NCBI RefSeq assembly: GCF_030811715.1
Contig: NZ_JAUSRH010000001.1
Coordinates: 186,001-250,000, forward strand
Length of the DNA: 64,000 nucleotides
From: Sinomonas atrocyanea
GTDB taxonomy: Bacteria; Actinomycetota; Actinomycetes; Actinomycetales; Micrococcaceae
Reading direction: 5' to 3'
Below are positions 34,900 through 38,434 of this stretch, piece after piece. Position numbers and translations under genes: made by a program. The notes below the pieces were generated by a model. That model had not been told where the DNA came from, did not search any database, and was given only the letters and a program-made list of their open reading frames with translations. The first letter of the stretch is position 1. Every line of letters starts with the position of its first letter.

Positions 34900-34968
34900 C
34901 CCCGTGGGTGGAATGATGGGCGGGACATCGGGCGGCAACCTCACATTTCCTCCTTCCCCGGCGTCTTC

Positions 34969-35475
34969 ATGGTGATGGACACGAAACAGCCCTTCGAAAA
35001 GCTCGTCGAGCTCCACGGAGCCGCGGTGCTGCGGGTGTGCCGTGCGGTCGTCGGCCCGCTGGACGCCGAGGACGTCTGGCAGGAGACCTTCCTCTCGGCC
35101 CTGCGCGCCTACACCGACCTGCCGCCCGATGCCAACGTCGAGGCGTGGCTCGTGACCATCGCCCACCGCCGTTCGCTCGACGCCGTACGGGCAGCGGGGC
35201 GCCGAGCCGTCCCCGTCGAGTCCGTGCCGGAGGGACGCTCGCCGCTCGGGAACCCTGCCCCGCCGGACGACGGCGTGTGGGGCCAGGTCGCGCGCCTGCC
35301 CGACAAGCAGCGGCGCGTCATCGCCTACCGCTACCTCGGCGATCTTCCCTTCGGGGAGATCGCCGCGATCGTCGGCGGCACCCCCGCCGCCGCCCGACGC
35401 TCCGCCGCGGACGGGCTCAGGAAGCTGCGCACCCTCGTCTCGGCAGACCTGCTGCCCGAAGGAGACCCCTCATGA
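34969..35475 (+). CDS. ECF-type sigma factor heading the alkylation-repair operon
   Basis: A 168-residue sigma factor. Region 2 is VELHGAAVLRVCRAVVG, DAEDVWQETFLSALRAY and WLVTIAHRRSLDAVRA; region 4 is LPDKQRRVIAYRYLGDL and FGEIAAIVGGTPAAARRSA. An ATG at 34975 could also serve as start. Its stop overlaps the start of ogt (ATGA), and ogt, alkB, tag and alkA follow without significant gaps. It is therefore the likely transcriptional activator of this repair set. No conventional anti-sigma gene is next to it. Confidence 0.9.
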   Translation: MVMDTKQPFEKLVELHGAAVLRVCRAVVGPLDAEDVWQETFLSALRAYTDLPPDANVEAWLVTIAHRRSLDAVRAAGRRAVPVESVPEGRSPLGNPAPPDDGVWGQVARLPDKQRRVIAYRYLGDLPFGEIAAIVGGTPAAARRSAADGLRKLRTLVSADLLPEGDPS

Positions 35476-36137
35476 ACCGCCCCCACATCGACACGGCTGC
35501 AACCGGTGCCGACTCCCCGTCACCGGGCCCCGGCGCCGTGGACCTCGCCTTCGCCCCCCACCTGACGGTGATCGAACCCGGCACCCTCGAGCGGCTCCGG
35601 GGCTCGCTGGCGGCCGAGGCCGGCCGGGAGGGACTGCTCGACGTCGCCTACCGGGTGGTCGACTCGCCGCTGGGCCAGCTCCTCATCGCCGCGACCGAAC
35701 GCGGCCTGGTCCGCGTGGCCTTCGAGCGGGAGGGCCTCGACGCCGTCCTGCAGACCCTCGCCGACCGGCTGAGCCCGCGCATCCTCGAGGCCCCCGGGCG
35801 CCTGGGCTCCGCCGCCCGCGAGATCGAGGAGTACTTCGCCGGCCGGCGCACGAGCTTCGATCTGCCCTTGGACCTGAGCCTCTCCGCCGGGTTCCGCCGC
35901 ACCGTGCTCGCCCATCTCGGTGAGATCCCCTTCGGCTCCACCGAGAGCTACACCGAGGTTGCCCGCGCCGTGGGGAACCCGAAGGCCGTCCGCGCGGTCG
36001 GATCGGCATGCGCGACCAATCCTCTCCCGCTCGTGATCCCGTGCCATCGGGTGCTGCGCTCCGACGGGAGCCTCGGCGGCTACATCGGCGGCCTGGAGGC
36101 GAAGACCGCGCTGCTCTCGCTCGAGGCGGCCGCATGA
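35472..36137 (+). CDS. ogt: Methylated-DNA-protein-cysteine methyltransferase with N-terminal extension
   Basis: A 221-residue suicide repair protein that removes alkyl groups from O6-alkylguanine. The core is canonical: VVDSPLGQLLIAATERGLVRV at the start of the fold, FGSTESYTEVARAVGNPKAVRAVG (helix-turn-helix with the Arg finger) and PLVIPCHRVLRSDG, where Cys is the methyl acceptor. About 55 residues precede the core, more than E. coli Ogt has, including a charged helix PGTLERLRGSLAAEAGREGLLDVAYR. It is translationally coupled to the ECF sigma gene upstream and to alkB downstream (ATGA at both ends). The extension could contact the sigma factor; this is inference. Confidence 0.93.
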   Translation: MNRPHIDTAATGADSPSPGPGAVDLAFAPHLTVIEPGTLERLRGSLAAEAGREGLLDVAYRVVDSPLGQLLIAATERGLVRVAFEREGLDAVLQTLADRLSPRILEAPGRLGSAAREIEEYFAGRRTSFDLPLDLSLSAGFRRTVLAHLGEIPFGSTESYTEVARAVGNPKAVRAVGSACATNPLPLVIPCHRVLRSDGSLGGYIGGLEAKTALLSLEAAA

Positions 36138-36805
36138 GCGGGGCGCTCTTCGGTGACGAGCTGCTCGAGAGGCCCCGCCGCGAGCTCGCCCCGGGCGCCG
36201 TCCATGTGCCCGGCTGGCTCACCCTCGAGCAGCAGGCGTGGATCGCCGAGCGGTTCCGCGAGTGGTCGGCCGGCCCGGTGCCCCCGCGGGCGGCGGCCGT
36301 GAGGGGGCACGAAATGTCCGTGAAGACGGTGTGCCTGGGCTGGCACTGGCAGCCCTACCGCTACACGCGCGAGGCGACCGACGTCAACGGCGCCCGGGTG
36401 CTGCCGCTGCCCGACTGGCTCGAGCGCGTGGGACGGCTCGCTGTCGCCGAGGCCTACGGCCCCAGCAAGACGGTCCGCCAGTACGCGCCCGACACTGCAC
36501 TCGTGAACTACTACGACGAGGACGCGCGGATGGGCATGCACCAGGACAAGGACGAGGTCTCCCGCGCGCCGGTCGTGTCCCTGTCCGTGGGCAACAGCTG
36601 CCTGTTCCGCTTCGGCAACTCGGAATCACGGGCGCGGCCGTACGAGGACCTCGTGCTGGCCTCCGGTGACCTCTTCGTGTTCGGCGGCCCGGCGCGGCTC
36701 GCCTTCCACGGCGTGATGAAGACCTATCCGGGCACTGCGCCCGCCGGGTGCGGTCTCGAGACAGGGCGCATCAACATCACCCTCCGCGTGACCGGACTGG
36801 ACTGA
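36134..36805 (+). CDS. alkB: AlkB-type DNA dealkylase (2-oxoglutarate/Fe(II) dioxygenase)
   Basis: A 223-residue oxidative demethylase for 1-methyladenine and 3-methylcytosine. The iron triad is in MGMHQDKDE (HxD) and RLAFHGVMK (distal His), and the 2-oxoglutarate arginine is in TGRINITLRVTG. Upstream, ALVNYYDEDA matches the AlkB substrate loop, and GWHWQPYRYTREA is typical of the bacterial group. Length is close to E. coli AlkB (216). The ATG overlaps the ogt stop. It is the third gene of the operon. Confidence 0.94.
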   Translation: MSGALFGDELLERPRRELAPGAVHVPGWLTLEQQAWIAERFREWSAGPVPPRAAAVRGHEMSVKTVCLGWHWQPYRYTREATDVNGARVLPLPDWLERVGRLAVAEAYGPSKTVRQYAPDTALVNYYDEDARMGMHQDKDEVSRAPVVSLSVGNSCLFRFGNSESRARPYEDLVLASGDLFVFGGPARLAFHGVMKTYPGTAPAGCGLETGRINITLRVTGLD

Positions 36806-36817
36806 AGGAGCATCCCC

Positions 36818-37414
36818 ATGGCCGAGGCAGCACTCATCACGGGCGAGGACGGTCTCTCCCGGCCGCTCTGGGCGAGCGCGGACGCGCTCATGCGCGAGTA
36901 CTACGACACCGAGTGGGGCATGCCCGTGCGCGATGAGCAGGGCGTGTACGAGCGGATCTGCCTCGAGGGCTTCCAGGCCGGCCTCTCCTGGGCCACGATC
37001 CTGCGGAAGCGGCCTGCGTTCCGCGCGGCCTTCGCCGGCTTCGACCCCGAGGCCGTCGCACGGTTCACGTCCGAGGACGTGGAGCGGCTCATGCTCGACG
37101 GGGGAATCGTCCGCAACCGGGCCAAGATCACCGCCTCCATCACCAACGCGCGCGCCACCCTCGCGCTCCGCGACGAGGGGGGCCTGGCTGAGTTCGTGTG
37201 GTCGTTCCAGCCCGCCGAGACGCCTGCGCCGGCCTCCTTCGCCGAGATCCCGTCCACCTCGCCGGAATCCATCGCCCTCTCGAAGGCGCTGCGCAAGAAG
37301 GGCTTCGCGTTCGTGGGCCCCACCACGATGTTCGCCCTCATGGAGGCCATCGGCATCATCGACACCCACCTCGTGGGCAGCCACCGCCGCGGCAGCTCCG
37401 GCGTGTGGGGCTAA
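36818..37414 (+). CDS. tag: DNA-3-methyladenine glycosylase I lacking the zinc-snap ligands
   Basis: A 198-residue glycosylase that excises 3-methyladenine. The catalytic region is canonical: ICLEGFQAGLSWATILRKR (Glu as in E. coli Glu38), VERLMLDGGIVRNRAKI and ALSKALRKKGFAFVGPTT. The zinc snap of E. coli Tag (Cys4, His17, His175, Cys179) is largely gone: by alignment Cys4 is Pro16 (SRPLW), His17 is Tyr29 (EYYDTEWG) and Cys179 is Ser (THLVGSH), with only His175 kept. ATG 36818 follows GAAGGAG. It is fourth in the operon, 12 bp after alkB. Confidence 0.93.
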   Translation: MAEAALITGEDGLSRPLWASADALMREYYDTEWGMPVRDEQGVYERICLEGFQAGLSWATILRKRPAFRAAFAGFDPEAVARFTSEDVERLMLDGGIVRNRAKITASITNARATLALRDEGGLAEFVWSFQPAETPAPASFAEIPSTSPESIALSKALRKKGFAFVGPTTMFALMEAIGIIDTHLVGSHRRGSSGVWG

Positions 37415-37420
37415 CCCACG

Positions 37421-38434
37421 GTGCTCGAGCGCAGCGACGCGGAGCCGAAACCCCGCCGTCCCGGGACGGCCGCGGCCGCCACGGCACCCATCCGGCTGGA
37501 GGCCCCCGGCGGCCTCGCGTCCTCCGCGATGCTCGCGAGCCTCGCGGCCCACACCGTGCCGGGCGCCGAACGCACCGACCCCACCACGGGCACCCACGAG
37601 CGGCTCGTGCACACCGCCCAAGGAGCGGTCGCCGTCTCGGTGCGGCTCGACGACCACGGCGTCGACCTCACCGTCCACGCTTCCCCAGACGTCATGGCGG
37701 CTGTGGTGCCGGCGGTCAGGTCATGGCTGGACCTCTCGACCGACCTGGGCGCCGTCCGCACGGCCCTGCGCGCCGATCCGCTCCTCCGACCTCTCGTGGA
37801 CGCCCGGCCCGCATTGCGGGTCACCGGAACCACCGACGTCTTCCAGACCGCTGTGACAACCGTGCTCGGCCAACAGGTCTCCCTCGCGGCAGGACGCACC
37901 TTCGCGGGGCGCCTCGTAGTCGCCTACGGGCAGCCCGGTCCTCACCGGTTCACCCAGTTCCCCACCGCCGCCGTCCTCGCCGAGGTCCGGCCGGAGGAAC
38001 TCCAAGCCGCCGTCGGCCTGACGTCCTCCCGCGCCCGCACGGTCCGCGCCCTCGCGGAGGCCTTCGCGGACCGGGGCCACTCTCCCGGTGACGCCGGCCT
38101 CAGGCTCACGCGCGACGAGCTCCTCGCCGTCCACGGGGTGGGGCCCTGGACCGCCGATTACCTCGAGGTCCGCACCGGCAGCCGGGACGCCTTCGCCCCA
38201 GGGGACCTCGTGCTGCGCCGCGCCCTCGGCGGCATCAGCCCAGCTGAGGCTGCCCGCCGTGCGGAGGCCTGGCGGCCCTTCCGCGCATATGCGCTCGTCC
38301 ACCTATGGACAGCCACCGCCTACGCGCCTGACACCGGCAGCGGCCGCCGGACCCAGGCGGGATCGGACGCCCTCCGTCAGGAGGTCGAGCTCGCGCCGAG
38401 GTCCCAGTTTGGACACACGGGCTCGACTCGGTAG
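37421..38434 (+). CDS. alkA: AlkA-type DNA-3-methyladenine glycosylase II
   Basis: A 337-residue glycosylase of the helix-hairpin-helix superfamily with broad specificity for alkylated bases. The N-terminal AlkA domain (about 25-120) includes VRSWLDLSTDLGAVRTAL. The core has VTTVLGQQVSLAAGRTFAGRLV. The hairpin is ELLAVHGVGPWTADYLEV, and FAPGDLVLRRALG carries the catalytic Asp. No Ada domain is fused, unlike many actinobacterial homologues. The GTG start lies 6 bp after the tag stop. The last bases carry the promoter of tRNA-Ser. Confidence 0.92.
   Translation: MLERSDAEPKPRRPGTAAAATAPIRLEAPGGLASSAMLASLAAHTVPGAERTDPTTGTHERLVHTAQGAVAVSVRLDDHGVDLTVHASPDVMAAVVPAVRSWLDLSTDLGAVRTALRADPLLRPLVDARPALRVTGTTDVFQTAVTTVLGQQVSLAAGRTFAGRLVVAYGQPGPHRFTQFPTAAVLAEVRPEELQAAVGLTSSRARTVRALAEAFADRGHSPGDAGLRLTRDELLAVHGVGPWTADYLEVRTGSRDAFAPGDLVLRRALGGISPAEAARRAEAWRPFRAYALVHLWTATAYAPDTGSGRRTQAGSDALRQEVELAPRSQFGHTGSTR

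Follow-up and report, generated by a model that had tools for sequence, protein, structure and literature searches.

A DNA alkyltransferase as putative damage sensor and dedicated partner of an ECF sigma factor in an alkylation-repair operon of Actinomycetota

We propose that an operon of Sinomonas atrocyanea responds to alkylation damage as a self-contained unit, in which the O6-alkylguanine-DNA alkyltransferase Ogt would be both a repair enzyme and the sensor of an ECF sigma factor, acting as an anti-sigma factor that is released by methylation (probability about 0.5). The operon lies within the window, i.e. the whole stretch of 64,000 nucleotides that was analysed (contig NZ_JAUSRH010000001.1, positions 186,001 to 250,000), and its genes follow one another on the plus strand in the order sigma, ogt, alkB, tag, alkA (Table 1). 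An earlier note on this DNA had suggested that unmethylated Ogt holds the sigma factor and that methylation of its active Cys sets it free. The parts of this model that the sequence evidence supports are the role of Ogt as the dedicated regulatory partner of the sigma factor and the alkylation-repair regulon; the evidence consists of the linkage between an N-terminal Ogt helix and the sigma factor, the absence of the sigma factor without Ogt, their co-divergence, a promoter motif and an anti-correlation with Ada. The repair enzyme probably also serves as the sensor of damage through which the sigma factor is controlled, taking the place of Ada, while the release step itself stays a proposal.

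Table 1. Features of the sigma-ogt operon in the window
Feature	Coordinates	Strand	Basis
Predicted sigma-dependent autoregulatory promoter	34938..34968	+	Conserved motif upstream of sigma genes
ECF sigma factor, probable group ECF122	34969..35475	+	Pfam Sigma70_r2 1e-13, Sigma70_r4_2 1e-7
Ogt: O6-alkylguanine-DNA alkyltransferase, Ada-C-like, with N-terminal extension	35472..36137	+	Pfam Methyltransf_1N and DNA_binding_1; Foldseek
Ogt N-terminal extension, residues 1-58	35472..35645	+	Outside Pfam domains; PDB matches core-sized
Ogt conserved helix, residues 38-52 (GTLERLRGSLAAEAG), family pattern LxRLHxRLxxxA	35583..35627	+	AF2 pLDDT about 90
Ogt methyl-acceptor Cys191 codon, in PCHRV	36042..36044	+	Cys in 196/196 aligned partners
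AlkB-like 2OG-Fe(II) oxygenase, ATGA overlap with ogt	36134..36805	+	PF13532 5e-48
Tag, DNA-3-methyladenine glycosylase I	36818..37414	+	PF03352 5e-66
AlkA-type DNA-3-methyladenine glycosylase II	37421..38434	+	AlkA_N, HhH-GPD

ATGA overlaps couple sigma to ogt and ogt to alkB. The former had been described in the earlier note and agrees with the coordinates (35472 versus 35475); the Ogt start that the note gave, 35460, lies 12 nt before the start codon and within the sigma gene, and was corrected to 35472. The closest named relative in our collection is Sinomonas sp. ASV486 (86% identity). The sigma factor (168 aa) consists in Pfam of regions sigma2 and sigma4 only, as in ECF sigma factors, which measure about 170-200 aa, and its AF2 model (pLDDT 88) has no C-terminal domain past region 4. 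Its reading frame opens at ATG 34969, and the conserved start is more likely GTG 34972 or ATG 34975. Judged from its neighbourhood, it probably belongs to group ECF122: at the locus we found a conserved O6-methylguanine DNA methyltransferase neighbour and no canonical anti-sigma factor, the two traits that it has in common with the group, whose representative (WP_057211282.1) comes from Cellulomonas. The same sigma-Ogt pair is present in the Cellulomonas relatives L080, L090 and L097. As cited in PMC8999054, ECF122 was defined in the Casas-Pastor 2021 classification; PMC8999054 itself, a 2022 review, describes the conserved 6-O-methylguanine DNA methyltransferase neighbour as possibly regulatory and lists the mechanism as unknown. 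The gene association is thus already published (PMC8999054). The linkage of the extension to the sigma factor, the regulon and the scarcity of Ada were derived here and may partly be contained in the Casas-Pastor classification; we found no experimental study of the sigma-Ogt pair in the literature searched.

By gene content and order, the sigma-Ogt pair is conserved as a module across Actinomycetota, in genera that include Mycobacterium, Nocardia, Rhodococcus, Streptomyces, Streptosporangium, Cellulomonas, Kocuria and Arthrobacter. Drawing on 80 named loci and on loci of four genome samples, we assembled 204 sigma-Ogt pairs, and since 175 of them share exactly a 4-nt NTGA overlap, the arrangement is not due to chance. 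When 149 genomes of the order were searched, two classes of Ogt emerged, one with ∼57-75% identity and a match reaching into the extension, the other comprising ordinary Ogts with ∼35-50% identity. The sigma profile matched 49 genomes of the order, all of which (49/49) also have an Ogt of the family, so that no sigma factor without such an Ogt was seen among them. By coordinates the two genes are adjacent in nearly all 49 genomes; in G049 and G092 they lie at contig ends, and in G016 the pair is unlinked. Natural sigma-Ogt fusions were sought and not found. In many Actinomycetota (L034-L105, e.g. L047, L064, L077) a canonical second Ogt gene (ogt1) lies directly upstream of sigma, often preceded by a separate copy of the promoter motif, and two alkyltransferases may then be induced. 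Actinomycetota-like sigma-Ogt loci also occur in records labelled as other phyla (L071 as Sporosarcina, L042/L103 as Dehalococcoidia MAGs and L055/L088 as Rokuibacteriota MAGs), with contamination, mis-binning or transfer as candidate sources.

The sigma partner is an O6-alkylguanine-DNA alkyltransferase by sequence, for which methyl transfer is predicted. In Pfam, Methyltransf_1N begins at residue 59 of its 221 aa and DNA_binding_1 spans residues 141-219. Its best Foldseek matches are M. tuberculosis OGT and E. coli Ada-C, with PDB matches that are as long as the core (about 160-175 columns), and the core is nearest to the C-terminal domain of Ada (113 bits with the Ada model versus 75 with the E. 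coli Ogt model). The Cys of PCHRV, the Asn hinge, the Arg finger, the Tyr and the Glu show little or no variation across 196 sequences; Cys191, Tyr160, Arg174, Asn183 and His192 are invariant in all 196 aligned sigma partners. The N-terminal extension of about 55 residues noticed earlier was recovered at about 58 residues, and residues 1-58 gave no domain match in Pfam or Foldseek and no Pfam anti-sigma domain. As the extension contains no Cys, it has no HxxxCxxC zinc motif and is not a zinc anti-sigma factor (ZAS). In the AF2 model (mean pLDDT 90), residues 1-30 are of low confidence and residues 38-52 form a confident helix. The helix, previously described as charged, is present, but its conserved pattern is instead amphipathic (LxRLHxRLxxxA, with L42, L46 and A50 conserved at 86-96%). 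Elsewhere the window's genome has only one further AGT-like match, L002 (G000:C10:19178; Pfam DNA_binding_1, profile positions 1-67, in a reading frame of 142 aa), a possible alkyltransferase-like protein.

We then compared Ogts with and without a linked sigma gene. The helix scored above threshold in 185/205 sigma-linked Ogts versus 5/84 unlinked ones, with a score built from 28 sequences and trained on sigma-linked ones, so that the raw unlinked sequences were inspected as well. Close Ogts of the same clade without sigma (L108, L110, L112, L154, L158-L164, L169, L179, L182, L184, L228, L229) start at the core or bear an unrelated leader, and in 12 genomes with such Ogts no sigma factor of the family was detected (E 1e-15). 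Two genomes, G896 and G913, carry two Ogt copies each, one with the helix and sigma and the other with neither. In G016, where sigma is on another contig, Ogt still has the helix, and the promoter lies immediately before its gene. Counter-examples are L137 and L151, in which the helix is present in a genome without a sigma factor of the family; L151 looks like a recent loss of sigma because a congener retains it. Of the sigma-linked Ogts, 20 score low. Some are divergent members at the phylum level; the others belong to a second subtype (sigma 110-127 bits), in which the extension has a different conserved pattern, FxPxVRPPxL. Because the helix differs in these Ogts, it is the extension rather than one fixed helix sequence that accompanies sigma. 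At the subtype-2 loci L165, L166, L167, L247 and L275-L280 the extension is shorter; several members of the subtype share FxPxVRPPxLxxxDVxYVVEDTAVG, and most have the promoter motif of the main group. An independent-pairs test on the tree found only six well-supported pairs (on average 2.5 agree and none oppose), too few for significance.

Could Ogt be a mere target of a sigma factor that is controlled by transcription or by some other signal, the extension serving stability, DNA binding or another role? A tight repair-gene neighbourhood, together with a motif before ogt genes, would give co-occurrence without any contact. We nevertheless regard this explanation as rather unlikely, as it does not account for the absence of the helix from close sigma-less Ogts or for its retention in the unlinked Ogt of G016. 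A further point against it is that, among the homologous genes of the locus set, only repair genes recur beside sigma. It is also at odds with the co-variation of the two proteins, measured at 51 loci with the neighbouring canonical ogt1 as the mirror-tree control: sigma co-varies more with its partner Ogt (OgtN) than with the adjacent ogt1 (r = 0.63 versus 0.44; partial correlations 0.52 and 0.17; bootstrap range of the difference in correlation 0.01-0.33). In mean-field DCA, the top 100 couplings included 24 inter-protein couplings with the true pairing, compared to 2-8 after near-neighbour swaps and 2-3 after random pairing. The top pairs were scattered and formed no single patch or coherent interface (Neff 158); this excess depends on the pairing but is suggestive only, and we do not claim a sigma-Ogt contact from it.

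The sigma factor appears to switch on alkylation-repair genes, and from the position of a conserved motif we infer that it reads CTCACR-N16-CGTYTRC. This motif or a near match precedes sigma in 81/100 loci, with a spacing of 16 in 78 of the 81, and the strict motif was found before sigma 79 times versus a mean of 0.65 in shuffles. In the window the -35 element is CTCACA (34940-34945) and the -10 element CGTC (34962-34965), separated by a 16-nt spacer. As the sigma start codon lies within about 10 nt of the motif, the mRNA would be leaderless, likely starting at GTG 34972 or ATG 34975. Where ogt1 stands ahead of sigma, the motif precedes ogt1, several loci having it before both genes, and most subtype-2 loci carry it too. 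Genome-wide, the strict pattern with one mismatch allowed gave 22 matches in 30 genomes versus 1 for the control, mostly before sigma; the motif also precedes the unlinked ogtN in G016 and an unlinked ogt1 in G963 (L267). A one-mismatch motif just upstream of a recO-like gene (identified by eye, about 1500 in locus L274, G121:C45:328681) suggests that recombinational repair joined the regulon in one lineage, G121. A perfect motif lies directly before a gene for a 141-aa SnoaL-like protein, likewise identified by eye (L266, G504:C14:49297). In the window's own genome a loose pattern gave 12 matches versus 8 for the reversed control pattern, so that targets apart from the operon are at most candidates there. 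Two of the loci were inspected, L115 and L120 (the latter an MFS transporter), and we claim neither.

The Ada zinc domain (PF02805) gave no match in the window's genome, which therefore does not qualify for an Ada adaptive response. Within the order, 6 of the 49 genomes with the sigma factor have the full domain, compared to 46 of the 100 without it (p 4e-5, a value that treats genomes as independent); after pooling by genus, for which the sigma set was slightly smaller, the difference was not significant.

Taken together, the translational coupling, the linkage between extension and sigma, the co-variation, the autoregulatory promoter and the invariant catalytic residues make Ogt a likely regulator of the sigma factor. 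In ECF operons the coupled second gene typically encodes an inhibitor, the anti-sigma factor, and in other AGTs alkylation of the active Cys destabilises the protein. On these two grounds we prefer the model in which unmethylated Ogt inhibits and methylated Ogt releases. Translational coupling would yield stoichiometric amounts of sigma and Ogt, and unmethylated Ogt would bind sigma via the N-terminal extension and hold it off. Once Cys191 had irreversibly accepted a methyl group from DNA, a change in shape or a destabilisation of Ogt would release sigma, which would then drive transcription of the whole operon, from its own gene through to alkA, at the CTCACR-N16-CGTY promoter. Only when the lesions are exhausted would fresh unmethylated Ogt accumulate and shut sigma off.

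The same linkage and co-variation data would fit an activator, in which methylated Ogt binds or assists sigma or recruits it to promoters. This would resemble E. coli, where methyl-Ada activates transcription with RNA polymerase (PMC4437013), and the Ogt core is indeed nearest to Ada-C. We consider an activator unlikely, as an autoregulated sigma factor without a brake would tend to lock on and a second gene coupled by ATGA typically encodes an anti-sigma factor; the sequence results do not distinguish the activator from the anti-sigma model. Ogt could also be a constitutive anti-sigma factor that is freed by lesion titration, proteolysis or redox, with methylation irrelevant to signalling. 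The linkage data fit this version too, but the catalytic residues invariant in 196 partners and the motif before alkylation-repair genes make it very unlikely in our estimate, even though they argue weakly, as a pure repair role would also explain them.

In the preferred model, release of sigma by methylation of Ogt, the locus would share with the Ada response of E. coli a suicide alkyltransferase that senses alkylation and induces itself together with alkA/alkB-type genes, and the core resembles Ada-C. Unlike in the Ada response, the output would come from an ECF sigma factor and not from a DNA-binding activator, and the proposed sensing Cys is the one that repairs O6-methylguanine, whereas N-Ada uses a phosphotriester Cys. 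Like the soluble zinc anti-sigma factors RsrA and ChrR, Ogt is cytoplasmic, is encoded by the second gene of an ECF operon and would receive a cysteine-based signal; in contrast to them it has no zinc motif or domain, it is a DNA-repair enzyme, and the proposed alkylation is irreversible while their redox signal is reversible. M. tuberculosis OGT and human AGT, top Foldseek matches, have the same fold and catalytic residues, but their solved chains of about 165 residues are without the N-terminal extension, and we know of no sigma partner for either.

A suicide repair enzyme that acts as an anti-sigma factor and frees sigma by its own irreversible methylation would thus differ from both Ada and SOS-type signalling and would stand in for Ada across many Actinomycetota, a proposition to which we give just short of an even chance. 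The linkage between extension and sigma, the alkyltransferase regulon and the scarcity of Ada make this suicide-sensor hypothesis directly testable. If it is true, direct DNA repair would be joined to the logic of ECF and anti-sigma factors, and the alkylation-responsive pair of sigma factor and promoter could be used for reporters. The repair enzyme would then count lesions stoichiometrically and thereby set the activity of the sigma factor, one protein reporting one lesion.
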